Of a stretch of DNA of 64,000 bases, positions 3,249-11,843 are shown piece by piece (the first letter of the stretch is position 1; the number at the start of each line of letters is the position of its first letter). Where the stretch lies: the NCBI RefSeq assembly GCF_030389965.1, contig NZ_CP128399.1, forward strand, positions 186,001 to 250,000, in the 5' to 3' direction. This stretch comes from Candidatus Chlorohelix allophototropha (GTDB lineage Bacteria > Chloroflexota > Chloroflexia > Chloroheliales > Chloroheliaceae). A program made the translations under genes and the position numbers. The notes below the pieces were generated by a model. The model did not search any database. It saw only the letters and a list, made by a program, of their open reading frames with translations, and was not told where the DNA came from.

Positions 3249-4436
3249 TTAATTTGAACCTGATTCGCCTTGAGGATATCCTGAGTCGGGGTAAGGATTC
3301 AAGCCTTGCTTCCGGGCGTAATTTTCTCCTAGCCGCACTCTTTCCGAAATCGGTGGGTGGGTGTAAAAGAGCCAAATTGCCCAACCGGGTGGATTTACTT
3401 CCGCCAGATTCTGGTTAGCCAGTTTTTTCATGCATGTAATAAATGAGGCTACATTTTCAGTTATATCCAGTGCATAATAATCCGCTGCCTTTTCGCGGCT
3501 ACGGCTGTAGGCGTTAGTTATCGGATTTGTAAACAGACCAAACCCTGTCAGAACCAATGCCAGCAATGGGAAGGCTGCCACATCGCCAATCTCTCGGAAA
3601 CCAAAAGCGCCAAGCGTATTTTGTAGCAGCAAGTTTGCTATAAACAAACCTACCATGGTTATTATCGCATCGAAGAAAATTCCACGCCATATATCGCCAT
3701 GCACATGGTGTCCTAGCTCGTGCGCCATAACCACTTCGATTTCATCGGGGGTAAAATGTTGAGTGAGGGTATCACCAAGCACAATTCGGCGGGTATTGCC
3801 CACTCCGGTTACAAAAGCATTGGAGGCGCTGGTACGACGGCTAAAATCCATCGTATAAATGCCCTTGACTCTTGCCCCGGTTTTATCGGCGAGTCGCAGC
3901 ATACGTTCGCGCAATTCATCGTTTTCTAGCGGAATAAATTTATTAAATAAGGGCATTATAATTACAGGAGCAAGGTTTGACATTATTATCACAAAGAACA
4001 GGTAAAATATACCCCCTGCCAACCACCACCACTCCGGTAAGCTTCTCAAGCCCAGATACAGCAGCGAAATCAAAAATAACCCGATTATCCCTCCTATTAC
4101 TGCGCCCTTGAAAACATCAATGAGCCAACCCCCTAACGTTTGGTGGGAAAGCCCGTACTTTCGAGGTAAATATAAGCTGCTGTAAAGATTCAAGGGAAAA
4201 GTCAGGATGGCGTAAGCTCCGCCCATCAAAATCATATATAACAGAACAACCAACCACTGGTTATTATTCCAGCTTTCAATCAGCTTCCGTATTTCCAGCG
4301 AAAATCCGCTGAAAAGTACCAGTAACAACGCTGCCAGTCCTAACCCGCTATTAACAAAAAAGAGCGTTCGTCGCGTTGCGGCATACTTGCTTGCCTTGCG
4401 CTGACGATTCTCGCTCATTTCAGTAGATATGGTCAT
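3249..4436 (-). CDS. M48 family membrane metalloprotease, Ste24/CAAX-protease type
   Basis: A 395-residue integral membrane zinc protease. Hydrophobic segments lie near residues 25-45, 60-90, 110-130, 138-162 and 252-305. The zinc motif is H239-E240-L241-G242-H243, and the third ligand is E315 in the conserved NAYSRSREKAADYYA stretch that marks the Ste24 branch of M48. A C-terminal THPP (359-362) is also typical. Bacterial members act in membrane-protein quality control; no CAAX substrate pathway is implied. The gene is followed directly by the Cas4-like gene. The start ATG at 4436 is 19 bases downstream of the next gene upstream, so a three-gene minus-strand operon is possible. Confidence 0.93.
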   Translation of the reverse strand: MTISTEMSENRQRKASKYAATRRTLFFVNSGLGLAALLLVLFSGFSLEIRKLIESWNNNQWLVVLLYMILMGGAYAILTFPLNLYSSLYLPRKYGLSHQTLGGWLIDVFKGAVIGGIIGLFLISLLYLGLRSLPEWWWLAGGIFYLFFVIIMSNLAPVIIMPLFNKFIPLENDELRERMLRLADKTGARVKGIYTMDFSRRTSASNAFVTGVGNTRRIVLGDTLTQHFTPDEIEVVMAHELGHHVHGDIWRGIFFDAIITMVGLFIANLLLQNTLGAFGFREIGDVAAFPLLALVLTGFGLFTNPITNAYSRSREKAADYYALDITENVASFITCMKKLANQNLAEVNPPGWAIWLFYTHPPISERVRLGENYARKQGLNPYPDSGYPQGESGSN

Positions 4437-4455: not shown

Positions 4456-5178
4456 CTAAAGTTTGGACACTTTTGAACTTTGATCACCCGCTTTGAGGGT
4501 ATTTGTCTGATTACCCGTGACTTTTGAATATAATTGTACCGCACTTGGTGGCGCTTTGTACCATTCTCCAGAACTGGTAACACCACCCTGCGGTGGCATA
4601 CCTTTGCCATCCCAATATACCCGCTCTTGTGGCTGGGGCGCTTTGCTTTTGTTGGGGTTTTTCTTTACATTTGTCGTGTAAATGAAATATCCGATGGTAA
4701 GAAAAGCGGTTACTACCAGAAAACAAATGCTCCATACTGTCGCCCAATCAAGATCATCCTGCTCCTGCGAGTGGTTTGCAATTCGCGCTAGGATTGTCCC
4801 TCCTTGAGAATCGTAGAGACTTAGTTTGAGAAGCCCATCATTGCTTTCAAACTCAGCTTCCGCGTAACAAGTCAGGCTTTTGCAATAGGCGTTAGCCACA
4901 TCGTATATTGGGGTTTGTACAATTGCTTTGACCGGATTGCTGTTGCTTGCGTCGGTAATGGTAAGTACATTAAAAGTGTCGGAGCCGAAATTCTCCTGAG
5001 ATATCAGAGTTACAGTACCTTTGACAAGGGTGTTTGCGGTGTTTTTAGCGTCAAGCGCATCAAAGAAAGTAAATGGGCCGATAATCAACAGCGCTACCCA
5101 CGCAATTAACCCTATTATGAGGAATATACAACCGGTGGAACTGCTTGTTTTGGGCTTGGTTTTTTTTGTGTTTGCCAT
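4456..5178 (-). CDS. Uncharacterised membrane protein with two transmembrane helices
   Basis: The chosen start is the ATG at 5178, which has AGGAAAG about 6 bases upstream; the open frame continues further 5' but that part has no ribosome site and looks non-coding. The 240 residues have a lysine-rich N-terminus, a helix at about 16-40, an extracytoplasmic domain of roughly 110 residues with two cysteines (near residues 104 and 109) that could form a disulfide, a second helix at about 157-176, and a Pro/Gly-rich cytoplasmic tail. I do not recognise a family. Probable first gene of the minus-strand unit with the M48 protease and the Cas4-like nuclease. Confidence 0.8.
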   Translation of the reverse strand: MANTKKTKPKTSSSTGCIFLIIGLIAWVALLIIGPFTFFDALDAKNTANTLVKGTVTLISQENFGSDTFNVLTITDASNSNPVKAIVQTPIYDVANAYCKSLTCYAEAEFESNDGLLKLSLYDSQGGTILARIANHSQEQDDLDWATVWSICFLVVTAFLTIGYFIYTTNVKKNPNKSKAPQPQERVYWDGKGMPPQGGVTSSGEWYKAPPSAVQLYSKVTGNQTNTLKAGDQSSKVSKL

Positions 5179-5286
5179 TTTTGCTTTCCTATCAGGTAAG
5201 GGTGCACTAACACTATTATAGCCTGTAAAAAGTAATACGCAACAAAAATTATAATGTAACAGAAAAAAATAAGAAGAAATTTGCGA

Positions 5287-5315
5287 TTGACAAGGTTCTA
5301 CGGCTAGCATATCAT
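5287..5315 (+). promoter_or_regulatory. Sigma-70-type promoter for the stress-protein fusion gene
   Basis: A perfect -35 hexamer TTGACA (5287-5292), a 17-base spacer and TATCAT (5310-5315, one mismatch) predict transcription starting near 5322, about 35 bases before the ATG at 5357. Confidence 0.75.
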
Positions 5316-5356
5316 TCAGACATGCGCCACTATAATTTCTACCATCAGGCTCACGG

Positions 5357-7249
5357 ATGTATAAGGTAATTGTACCGATTCTAAATCCAAATACGGCTGA
5401 GGATATGGTACATTTGGCTACCACACTTTCGGGTGTTTCTTCCGAGAAAACCGACCGTTTAAAAGTAACGGTACTTGGTGTGGTGGTTGTTCCGTCCGAT
5501 ACCCCTTTGAGTCAAGGTGCAAGCCTAGTCAAAGCTTACCGTACAATGCTGCGCTACATTCCCCCTGAAAATAATAATAAAGTGGAAGTGCGTACCGAGG
5601 TACGAGTCGCGCGTGAAGTTTGGCAAGGGATTGTGGAACAGGTACGCGAGGAAGGTGCGAACCTGTTGTTGTTGCACTGGAAAGGCGCTACCCAAACTCC
5701 GGGAGCAATCTACGGTTCTACCATCGATATGCTGATGCGCGACACACCCTGCGATATGGTGTTAGCACGCTTTAATGGCTTCAAGCCCGCTAAAAATATT
5801 TTGATACCTGTTCGGGGCAGTGGTTATAGCAGCCTAGCTTTAAAGTTAGCTTCCAACATTTCCGAAGTTTGGGGAACTAAGCTTACGGTTTTGCATAGCT
5901 TCTCACAACTTGTCCCCGGTACTGTCGAATCTGCGTCTGATTTGAGCGATTATTCTCCTGCTTATACTGATTCGTTTGGTTCGGAAAACACCTTTAATGC
6001 CTCTGAAATTTTAAGCGAATTGCCTCCCGGCGCGGGTTTATTAACCGTTCAGGGTGATCCTACTACCAGCATTTTACGTGAAGTTCCACATTATGACATG
6101 GTGGTGGTAGGGGCAAGCGGCGTAGAGGGAAAGCCTTCAGGTGAGAACGAGTCAATGGCTATCCGGTTATCCCGACGACTTGAAACTCCTTTACTGGTGG
6201 TTAAGGCTAACCGCCCGTTGACTGCAACTAAACCGGGTGCGCCGCATCGCGATGATGAGCGGTTGGCTGAAATCATTGACCAGTGGTTTGCTCAGAATAC
6301 CTTCCGCTATCGTGAGTTCCGCAGCATGAGCAGTCTTACTCTACTCAAAGCCAGTAATAATTTGAGTATTAGTCTCGTTTTCCCGGTCTATGGTAAAGTG
6401 CAACCGATGAATTTGGCGGAGAATATCCGGCGCGCTCGTTTTGCCTTGATGCGTGATTGTGCTTTGGTAGATGAAATTATTATTTCTGCTCCCGGCGCTT
6501 TGTTTGACCCTGATGAGCTTACTCTATTGGGTGCAGGCGAGGGCGAGGAAGTGATATATGTTCATTCCGATAGCCCCCACTCTCCAGAGCAGAGTAACGG
6601 ACCGGGGGAGGCGCTGTGGCACGCTATGCGTAAGGCGCGTGGTGATATTGTAGTATGGGCAGATCCAAGCGTAAGTGGGTTTGAGCCACGCCACATTTAT
6701 GGGCTGGTCGGTCCTTTGCTCACCTATACCAAATTTGTAATGTCCTGCGGTTTTTTCTCCGAAGAAGACGAAAACGATTTTCACCCGGTAATGGATGAAC
6801 TGGCAGAACTGAGTATCCGACCTTTACTGAGTGGCTTCTTTCCGCGCTTGTCCGGGGTGATAAATCCGCTCTGTTTGGTGGGTGCGGCACGCCGCGATAG
6901 TATTGAACGTTTGCCTTTCTTTACCGAGTCAGGCTTTATGCCGGGTCTGCTGATAGATGCTACGGCGCGAAATGGCTTAATGTCGTTGGTACAAGTAGAT
7001 TTAGGTGCGCCTGCCGCCAGTGTCTGTGCTGTAGCTCCACAGCGTACCAGTGCTGAAGTAATGGAAGTGTTATTGCGGCGAATAGAGGATCGCGCTCAGG
7101 TGCATTTATCCCAATATTTCAATTCTTCTTTAAAGGCGATACACCGGGAAAACGGGGCTTTTTTCCTGAAGGTAGTGCCTCAAAACTCCCCTGTACGAGA
7201 GTTGCCGCCTCCAATTTTCGCCCCCGGTTACTATCGCAACCAATTCTAA
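5357..7249 (+). CDS. Tandem universal stress protein fused to a degenerate GT81-like (GpgS-type) domain
   Basis: Residues 1-138 and 145-285 are two Usp-type Rossmann domains; the second keeps the VVVGASG-type nucleotide loop (249-255). Residues about 320-570 resemble glucosyl-3-phosphoglycerate synthase (family GT81): SLVFPVYG near the start, VDEIIIS, a GPGEALWHAM helix (415-424), ARGDIVVW, GLVGPLL, IRPLLSGFFPRLSG, the INPL stretch and the GLLIDATARNGL-QVDLG ending. In active GT81 enzymes the strand after GDIVV carries a metal-binding DxD; here it reads ADPS (435-438), so metal-dependent transfer is doubtful. I infer a stress sensor or regulator with a pseudo-glycosyltransferase module rather than an active synthase. 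Fold assignment is from motif reading only. It has its own promoter. Confidence 0.8.
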   Translation: MYKVIVPILNPNTAEDMVHLATTLSGVSSEKTDRLKVTVLGVVVVPSDTPLSQGASLVKAYRTMLRYIPPENNNKVEVRTEVRVAREVWQGIVEQVREEGANLLLLHWKGATQTPGAIYGSTIDMLMRDTPCDMVLARFNGFKPAKNILIPVRGSGYSSLALKLASNISEVWGTKLTVLHSFSQLVPGTVESASDLSDYSPAYTDSFGSENTFNASEILSELPPGAGLLTVQGDPTTSILREVPHYDMVVVGASGVEGKPSGENESMAIRLSRRLETPLLVVKANRPLTATKPGAPHRDDERLAEIIDQWFAQNTFRYREFRSMSSLTLLKASNNLSISLVFPVYGKVQPMNLAENIRRARFALMRDCALVDEIIISAPGALFDPDELTLLGAGEGEEVIYVHSDSPHSPEQSNGPGEALWHAMRKARGDIVVWADPSVSGFEPRHIYGLVGPLLTYTKFVMSCGFFSEEDENDFHPVMDELAELSIRPLLSGFFPRLSGVINPLCLVGAARRDSIERLPFFTESGFMPGLLIDATARNGLMSLVQVDLGAPAASVCAVAPQRTSAEVMEVLLRRIEDRAQVHLSQYFNSSLKAIHRENGAFFLKVVPQNSPVRELPPPIFAPGYYRNQF

Positions 7250-8826: not shown

Positions 8827-8876
8827 GAATCTTAATTATGATCTTTTTTGTTAATGCTAGAAAAGAGAAAACAGTT

Positions 8877-11843
8877 ATGTCCATTGTGGAAATAGGGGAT
8901 ACAAAATCGCAGCCGGGAAACCCGCAGCAAGAACACGTTCTGGTGGTCGTAACCCATACTCACTGGGATAGAGAATGGTATCTGCCCTTTCAGAATTACC
9001 GTTTCAAATTGGTACGCTTGATAGATAAACTTCTGAATATTCTTGATACCAGCCCTGACTTCAAATATTTTATGCTTGACGGTCAAACCATTGTGCTGGA
9101 CGATTATCTTGAAGTGTGCCCTGAGCGCGAAGCCGATTTGAAGCGGCATATTGAAAGCGGACGTTTGCTGATAGGTCCTTGGTATATCCTACCTGACCAG
9201 TTTTTAATAAGCGGCGAAGCCCACATACAAAATATGCTGCGCGGTTTGAAAGCCTGCCGGAAGTATGGCGCATCTATGCAGGTGGGCTATATACCCGATT
9301 CTTTCGGGCAAATCAGCCAGATGCCCCAAATCTTGCGCGGTTTTGGCATTGATACCGCTGTTTTCTGGCGAGGGGTTGGTCCTGAAATTACCCAAATAGA
9401 ATTTCTATGGGAAGCACCCGATGGTAGTATTGTAAATTCGGCTCATTTGCCCGGTAGCGCCAATATCGGCGGCTATAGCACCGCTCTAGCTTTTAATACC
9501 GGGGTTGCATCGGCGGTTGCGCAGTTGGGAGCGGTTGAGAATTTTTTGATAAAACGTTCTACCAGTGGTGTTACTCTTTTAATGAACGGCGATGACCACG
9601 CAGAGCCTACGGCTGATCTGCCCGAAATTCTTAAAAAAGTAGCGGAAATAATGCGAGAAAAGGGTAAAAATTACCGCTTTGTACACGGCACACTGCCCCA
9701 ATTTCTGGAAATGGTGCGACAGAGCGGCGCGTGGGAAAATCCCAATGTTCCGCGACATCGTGGCGAGTTCCGCAACCCCAAATTAGCGCACCTGTTACCG
9801 GGAGTTACTTCGGCGCGTATGTGGATAAAACAGTGGAATCATCGGGTCGAGGGCTTGCTAGAACGCGAAGCGGGTTTGGCGTTAGCGTGGTTCAGAGCTT
9901 TGCCAAATGCTAAATCTACTTATGACCCTGCTTCCTTGCAAGGGCTTTATGATACTGCTTGGAAATACCTGTTGCAAAATGACCCGCACGATAGCATCTG
10001 TGGTTGCAGTGTCGATCAGGTTCATGAAGAAATGAAGACCCGCTATGCTTGGGCGGAGCAAATTTCTATCGATTTGCGCGATGAGGGTTTCCGTTCTATC
10101 GCAAATCTGGTCGATACTGCGGCGATTTCAAACGAGGAGAAAATCCAACCGATAGTGGTATTCAATCCCATTCCCTTGAAACGCACCGATACTACCACGC
10201 TTACCGTTTCGGTAAATCCCGATTTCGATGATTTTGTAATCACCGATGCTGAAGGGGCTATCTACCCGCACCTAATTACCCGCCGCGAACGTGAAGTCTT
10301 ATTCAGTATGGATATCCCGGCATTTGCGCTGATGGGCATGAAGAGCCATGCAGATGATGACGGTCGGGTGATGGGTTATAGCATGGTCGATATCAAATTT
10401 GATCGGCAGCTATCTAACAAAGAGATTGTGACGGTAGAGGTTACGGCAGTATATAACAGCGCTGCGCCTACCAATCCTGCTTTGATGAGTTATGCTCTTA
10501 GCGAAGCTCAGAAGTATATGGATGATGGGGTTCAAACCTTTAAGATGACCGCTTATCGGCAAAGTTCGCTCGCCTTGCAGTTTTTGTCGCGTGATGTGCC
10601 GCCTACTGGTTACAAAACTTTTGCCTTACGCGCCAGACACGAAAATGAGCCTGTTTTCAAGCAAGAAGTAAAGAATGCACCGGAGACAATCGAAAACGAG
10701 TTTTATACTATAGATGTTGAGGCTAAGACCGGGCTTCTCACTATAGTAGATAAAGAAACCGGGGCTGTTTACTCGCAAATAAATCGTTTCAGGGATGTGG
10801 CAGATGCGGGGGATGAGTATAATTTTTCACCCATACCGCAGGATAAAGGAATCGAGAGCTACTTTGACGCTCCCCAGATTTTCGTGCGTCTTTCCGAACT
10901 GGAGCAATCCATCGAGGTGAATACTGCGCTGGAGTTGCCTTATAGCCTCAAAGCAGATCGGCAATCTCGTAGCGAAGAGATGACTCTGTGTTCCCTTACC
11001 ACCGTTGTGACGCTTACTCCCGGTTCGCGCCGAATTGATTTCGAAACCGCTTTCCACAACAAGGTGGAAGACCACCGTTTACAGGTGCTTTTCCCTGCGC
11101 CTTTTGCAGCAACCGAAAGCAAAGCGGAAGGTATTTTTGATGTTATTACCCGCCCGGTGGGTGTGCCTCGTTTCGATAGCAAGTGGCTTGAAGACCCTAT
11201 GCCACAAGCGCCTCAGAAAACCTTTGTGTCAATAAATGATGCAGAGTCTAAGCTAGGCTTAACTGTTATTAACCGAGGTTTGCCGGAACACGAAATAGTG
11301 AAATTACCTGATGGCAACAGCGCCATTGCGATTACACTTTTGCGTTCGGTGGGTTGGCTCAGTCGTGACGACCTCAAAACTCGGCGCGGTCATGCCGGAC
11401 CCGGTATGCCAACACCCGGCGCACAATGTCAGGGACGGCACTATTTCCACTATGCTCTTATGCCTCATAAGGGCGAATGGCTGGTTTCAGGCGCACAGCA
11501 GCAAGCACACGCCTTTAACCATCCTATGATTGGCGTGATGGCAGCGAAACAAGTGGGAGAGTTGCCAATTTCCCAGAGTTTCGTGGAAATTCAGCCGCGC
11601 GTGATGGCTCTCAGCACTATTAAAGGCAGTGATGACGGGGCAGCAGTTATTGTACGGCTCTGGAATCCGAGCGATAGAGATATTCCGATTTGCAAGGTAC
11701 GTTTCTTCCGGCAATTCTCTAGTGTCAGTCTGGTCAATTTAGAGGAAAACGAAACGGTGGAGGTCTTGCAGCAGGAAACAGACGGCAGTTACAATTTCTC
11801 GGCTTACGCCCACAAGATTCTAACCTTGCGCCTCGACTTCTAA
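8877..11843 (+). CDS. Glycoside hydrolase family 38 alpha-mannosidase
   Basis: A 988-residue retaining alpha-mannosidase of family GH38. By alignment of motifs to the family, the zinc and catalytic residues are H29 and D31 (HTHWDREW), the nucleophile D141 (GYIPDSFG) and H371 (NDPHDSICGC), all present. A central three-helix region and long C-terminal beta domains follow, and the length is typical. There is no signal peptide, so it is probably cytoplasmic and acts on imported or turned-over mannosides. The ATG at 8877 is preferred because the alternative at 8838 sits almost on the predicted transcription start and adds 13 atypical residues. It ends before a strong convergent hairpin. Confidence 0.95.
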   Translation: MSIVEIGDTKSQPGNPQQEHVLVVVTHTHWDREWYLPFQNYRFKLVRLIDKLLNILDTSPDFKYFMLDGQTIVLDDYLEVCPEREADLKRHIESGRLLIGPWYILPDQFLISGEAHIQNMLRGLKACRKYGASMQVGYIPDSFGQISQMPQILRGFGIDTAVFWRGVGPEITQIEFLWEAPDGSIVNSAHLPGSANIGGYSTALAFNTGVASAVAQLGAVENFLIKRSTSGVTLLMNGDDHAEPTADLPEILKKVAEIMREKGKNYRFVHGTLPQFLEMVRQSGAWENPNVPRHRGEFRNPKLAHLLPGVTSARMWIKQWNHRVEGLLEREAGLALAWFRALPNAKSTYDPASLQGLYDTAWKYLLQNDPHDSICGCSVDQVHEEMKTRYAWAEQISIDLRDEGFRSIANLVDTAAISNEEKIQPIVVFNPIPLKRTDTTTLTVSVNPDFDDFVITDAEGAIYPHLITRREREVLFSMDIPAFALMGMKSHADDDGRVMGYSMVDIKFDRQLSNKEIVTVEVTAVYNSAAPTNPALMSYALSEAQKYMDDGVQTFKMTAYRQSSLALQFLSRDVPPTGYKTFALRARHENEPVFKQEVKNAPETIENEFYTIDVEAKTGLLTIVDKETGAVYSQINRFRDVADAGDEYNFSPIPQDKGIESYFDAPQIFVRLSELEQSIEVNTALELPYSLKADRQSRSEEMTLCSLTTVVTLTPGSRRIDFETAFHNKVEDHRLQVLFPAPFAATESKAEGIFDVITRPVGVPRFDSKWLEDPMPQAPQKTFVSINDAESKLGLTVINRGLPEHEIVKLPDGNSAIAITLLRSVGWLSRDDLKTRRGHAGPGMPTPGAQCQGRHYFHYALMPHKGEWLVSGAQQQAHAFNHPMIGVMAAKQVGELPISQSFVEIQPRVMALSTIKGSDDGAAVIVRLWNPSDRDIPICKVRFFRQFSSVSLVNLEENETVEVLQQETDGSYNFSAYAHKILTLRLDF

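Follow-up and report, generated by a model that had tools for sequence, protein, structure and literature searches.

The window, the whole stretch of 64,000 nucleotides analysed here, carries a gene for a protein of 630 residues, in which two universal stress protein (Usp) domains precede a domain related to glucosyl-3-phosphoglycerate synthase (GpgS, CAZy family GT81), the first enzyme of glucosylglycerate synthesis. Its features are listed below by window position and strand; residues of the GpgS of M. tuberculosis (MtGpgS) serve as the reference.

5287-5315 (+): promoter-like TTGACA-N17-TATCAT, 11 of 12 positions, a consensus match only
5357-7249 (+): whole gene, Usp-Usp-pseudo-GpgS, 630 aa, ATG start (Pfam, NCBIfam, orthologues)
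5357-5779 (+): Usp domain 1 (Usp1), residues 1-141, the most constrained part (Pfam, dN/dS, invariance)
5789-6211 (+): Usp domain 2 (Usp2), residues 145-285, fast evolving, without the classical ATP motif (Pfam, dN/dS)
6263-7246 (+): GT81/GpgS-like domain, residues 303-630, catalytic residues lost (profile and structure-database matches, alignment)
6662-6670 (+): former DxD, D436-P437-S438, at D134-S135-D136 of MtGpgS (alignment)
6809-6868 (+): retained helix α6 segment, residues 485-504, LSIRPLLSGFFPRLSGVINP (alignment; dimer interface in MtGpgS)

The Pfam model PF00582 recognizes two Usp stretches in the protein (61 bits, over the cut-off, E 2.2e-16). Residues 307-592 match the NCBIfam GpgS model NF010496 (E 2e-35), at 122 bits, under the 262-bit cut-off for GpgS. 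The best matches in the PDB are GT81 enzymes, namely 3f1y of Rubrobacter xylanophilus (E 1.7e-21), followed by mycobacterial GpgS. A first, sequence-only reading of this DNA had described a Usp pair joined to a GT81-like domain, and the three kinds of match bear it out. The motifs it named are all present in the order known from GpgS, and GDxxxW, GPLL and RPLL are shared with GT81 enzymes.

Profile-profile comparison of the window-type proteins with intact fusions gives an E-value of 8e-54 over 322 columns, so the likeness to GpgS is not due to chance. The GT81 fold is hardly in doubt either, since the GT part is 33% identical to that of an intact paralogue in the same genome (E 4e-44). AlphaFold, run with an alignment of five sequences only, reached a mean pLDDT of 50 for the full protein, where the Usp part alone is usable, and of 42 for the GT domain alone. 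A Foldseek search with the full-length model (mean pLDDT 50) returned tandem Usp proteins at the top and 3f1y at E 4e-6. Tandem Usp proteins such as UspE, Rv2623 and TTHA0350 resemble the N-terminal 285 residues; the window protein differs from them in its fusion to a GT81 domain and in its altered ATP motif.

The genome (6.09 Mb in five contigs, two of them of 2.96 and 2.45 Mb) also holds the second, intact gpgS that the sequence-only reading had proposed to look for. It lies at C1:2937101-2939173 (L004:5102-7174), about 2.7 Mb from the window gene by contig coordinate, and scores 378 bits, over the GpgS cut-off. It is itself a Usp-Usp-GpgS fusion, with the same domain order and overall length as the window protein, and all of its motifs are present: DTD, PALNEE, GKGEALWK, GGGRVTEL, GYGVETG and HRNQ. 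The fusion, real as it is, is not special in itself: Usp-Usp-GpgS is widespread in Chloroflexota, with a match in 117 of 400 sampled genomes, and what stands out is the second, dead copy. Among open-licence papers we found neither a GT81 pseudoenzyme nor a Usp-GpgS fusion.

Orthologues of the window protein, full length and about 50-52% identical, occur in four other Chloroheliaceae genomes; a separate contig scan for window-type members returned the same four genomes and none further. Dead and intact copies are found together in all five Chloroheliaceae species examined, which belong to three genera. Only one other genome in the class, G008 of another family, has a second, degenerate Usp-GT copy (L051:4089-6125). 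The intact enzyme is present in 6/6 genomes with a degenerate copy, whereas 32 of 158 genomes of the class have any match, a contrast weakened by shared ancestry.

An alignment was made of the window-type proteins, five in all, and 62 Chloroflexota fusions of the intact type. At the DxD position, all 62 intact-type fusions have DxD and all five window-type proteins have DP(S/H/T). The sequence-only reading had taken ADPS in the window protein for a lost DxD. The metal-binding second aspartate, D136, is indeed replaced (S438), but the first is kept (D436, equivalent to D134). The loss of the DxD is also an incomplete account, as it is one among about 13 losses.

Fourteen side chains have nucleotide, metal, donor or acceptor roles in MtGpgS (PMC2581804, PMC7185993). 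Thirteen of them are lost (L52, E54, S81, K114, D136, G184, R185, T187, Y229, E232, H258, N260 and M269), and D134 is the only one that all five dead copies keep. In the window protein, P416, M528 and A554 stand in place of the K114/E232 ion-pair network and H258, and D480, E481 and A483 in place of G184, R185 and T187 of the 3-PGA site GGGRVTEL. E54, D136 and Y229, also present in GT81 GpgS, are likewise missing.

The domain nevertheless aligns with GpgS over its whole length. Of 112 GT-domain columns whose conservation across the 62 intact-type fusions reaches 93% or more, the window protein retains 57, and 44 are common to all five dead copies; ligand side chains are kept less often than the rest of the conserved columns (Fisher p 0.006 for the five copies together and 0.0004 for the window protein alone). 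In the dead clade, 43 GT-domain positions have newly become invariant. The pseudoenzyme reading of the GT domain is strengthened by the recurrence of the losses in each of the five orthologues; this cross-species comparison of sequences leaves it well supported, and we infer that the window protein is incapable of glucose transfer.

Selection was estimated as dN/dS by Nei-Gojobori counts in three species of one genus; synonymous distances approach saturation in some pairs, and the values are approximate. The dead copy gives 0.06-0.10 for the GT domain, 0.02-0.07 for Usp1 and 0.15-0.23 for Usp2. In the same comparisons, the intact paralogue gives 0.03-0.04, 0.09-0.10 and 0.12-0.17, respectively. 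The strongest constraint has thus moved, from the GT domain in the intact copy to Usp1 in the dead one. Counts of invariant residues point the same way: in the dead clade of five orthologues, 57% of Usp1 and 39% of the GT domain are invariant, and in the intact clade the figures are 44% and 71%. Under such strong purifying selection, the dead copies do not behave as a decaying gene.

The constrained Usp1 contains the motif H107-W-K-G-9x-G120-S, a variant of the ATP-type G-2x-G-9x-G(S/T) in which histidine replaces the first glycine, so its binding of ATP is uncertain. No such motif is found in Usp2, and most Usp-Usp-GpgS fusions are without the classical ATP motif. In the intact GpgS of Chloroheliaceae the glycine motif region of Usp1 is lost (GSSWFES...), and the dead copy retains most of it; a division of labour between the two copies is possible.

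GpgS is dimeric, and helix α6 forms part of the dimer interface of MtGpgS (PMC2581804). The α6 segment of the dead copies retains L189, R192, P193, P200 and L202. From the other part, α9, L266 and its neighbours are replaced, so that only the α6 half of the interface is recognizable. Conserved residues in α6 are not significantly enriched over the rest of the GT domain (p 0.19), so we make no claim that the dimer interface is retained.

In a tree of the Usp domains, the five window-type proteins and the G008 copy cluster together (support 95/87). A recent duplication inside the family is rejected on this tree, where placing the window-type proteins with the intact copies of their own family has a p-AU of 0.008; the tree suggests a duplication predating the family. 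In the GT tree, the stem branch to the dead clade amounts to 4.4 changes per site, and a single clade of all six degenerate copies is disfavoured (p-AU 0.04). With branches of 4-6 changes per site this tree is unreliable, and the position of the G008 GT domain may reflect either a separate loss of catalysis or a long-branch effect.

The surroundings of the gene vary. Comparison of the family orthologues revealed no neighbour of the window gene common to other genera and hence no functional link, nor is any neighbour common to the intact gpgS locus; in one genus, the window-type gene sits between genes for an MFS transporter and a Nudix CoA pyrophosphatase. In G008, the degenerate Usp-GT gene lies in a string with genes for a PP2C phosphatase and an RpoD-like sigma factor (L051:2690-8275, minus strand), overlapped by 4 bases by the PP2C gene upstream and with the sigma factor gene downstream of it. 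This is a signalling neighbourhood, seen in one genome only.

The near-consensus promoter of the sequence-only reading holds as a pattern, and sites matching 10-11 of 12 positions precede each of the four orthologues too, though not at the same distance. Promoter-like sites in the region overall show no excess over shuffled sequence, so the pattern alone is weak.

We now propose a role for the window protein. We regard it, with a confidence just short of even, as an old dead paralogue of Usp-Usp-GpgS which acts through Usp1 and whose GT fold serves for docking or for binding a ligand, with the intact GpgS as its likeliest partner. Usp1 would be the acting part, responsive to nucleotide or stress, and the GT-A fold would have been kept for docking or ligand binding. 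The dead copy would most likely pair with the intact Usp-Usp-GpgS, a partner suggested by the dimeric state of GpgS, and tune its activity in the manner of prozyme-type dead paralogues. Against such a pairing stand the distance of about 2.7 Mb between the two genes, the lack of a neighbour common to different genera and the replacement of α9. The stress-sensor or GpgS-regulator role offered by the sequence-only reading is plausible.

Dead paralogues that control an active partner are described for AdoMetDC of T. brucei, the prozyme (PMC5201418), and for trypanosomatid DHS (PMC3663545); COSMC, as cited in PMC7185993, is a GT31 pseudo-glycosyltransferase chaperone with a GT-A fold. The likeness to all three lies in a dead paralogue kept beside an active enzyme. 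The present case differs in being bacterial, in belonging to GT81 and in its Usp domains; what is seen here is the co-occurrence of the two copies and partial retention of the interface. Taken further, the analogy would give a bacterial prozyme-like system for a compatible-solute enzyme: a dead, Usp-bearing GpgS subunit would do most of the sensing and make glucosylglycerate synthesis depend on the nucleotide or stress state, and its intact partner would do the catalysis; we hold this full version to be somewhat unlikely.

The same strong constraint on Usp1 would also suit a protein that signals alone and is unrelated to GpgS, with Usp1 binding a nucleotide or a partner and the GT fold acting as a scaffold or sugar-nucleotide sensor in another pathway. 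The absence of neighbours in common with the intact gpgS locus fits such a protein, as does the PP2C-UspGT-RpoD string around the G008 relative, an arrangement typical of signalling. However, that context comes from one genome, and the intact enzyme accompanies the degenerate copy in every genome that has one, which counts against this reading even if shared ancestry weakens the point. We consider independent signalling possible, if on the doubtful side.

Purifying selection could instead maintain an active, re-specialised and metal-independent glycosyltransferase: GT-A enzymes without DxD exist, in GT14 and prokaryotic GT6 (PMC7185993), D436 is kept, and the 43 newly invariant residues include E443, R366, D367 and E398. 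Yet the losses go far beyond the DxD, ribose, uracil, phosphate-metal, donor-sugar and acceptor residues having gone together. The newly invariant residues are moreover mainly proline, glycine, aromatic or aliphatic, and no Arg/Lys pair obviously substitutes for the metal, as judged from sequence. A new activity is thus distinctly unlikely. That the gene is a pseudogene, or a relaxed copy on its way out, is scarcely credible: the long GT stem branch would fit, but the frame is open in five species of three genera, the dN/dS of the GT domain contradicts relaxation, and 39% of GT residues are invariant although overall identity between the orthologues and the window protein is only about 50%. 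As a whole family keeps the dead paralogue beside the working enzyme, a regulator without catalytic activity is the probable reading, not a broken gene.

Universal stress proteins are common, and for most of them no target is known. Here, one family has, in every species examined, a Usp fused to a disabled metabolic enzyme alongside the functional one, which makes GpgS a concrete candidate target, and the dead/intact pair offers a simple two-protein test of Usp control over metabolism. The family, Chloroheliaceae, includes a newly described phototroph lineage.

Several further genes lie close to one or the other copy. The window gene is followed, 1.6 kb downstream, by a GH38 α-mannosidase gene (window 8838-11843, plus strand), the sole such match in the genome, whose nearest family is mannosylglycerate hydrolase (545 bits against a cut-off of 1138). 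The linkage is not seen in the orthologues of the window gene, and the proximity is possibly a coincidence. On the upstream side, the window encodes at 3249-4436 (minus strand) an M48 peptidase of the CAAX prenyl protease type with an M48_N membrane domain. Beside the intact copy, a GT4 glycosyltransferase gene (L004:3864-5147) overlaps the start of the Usp-GpgS open reading frame as called (5102-7174), and in each of the five family genomes a GT4 homologue adjoins the intact copy. Its best match, a weak one, is mannosylglucosylglycerate synthase, hinting at a product of the mannosylglucosylglycerate type.
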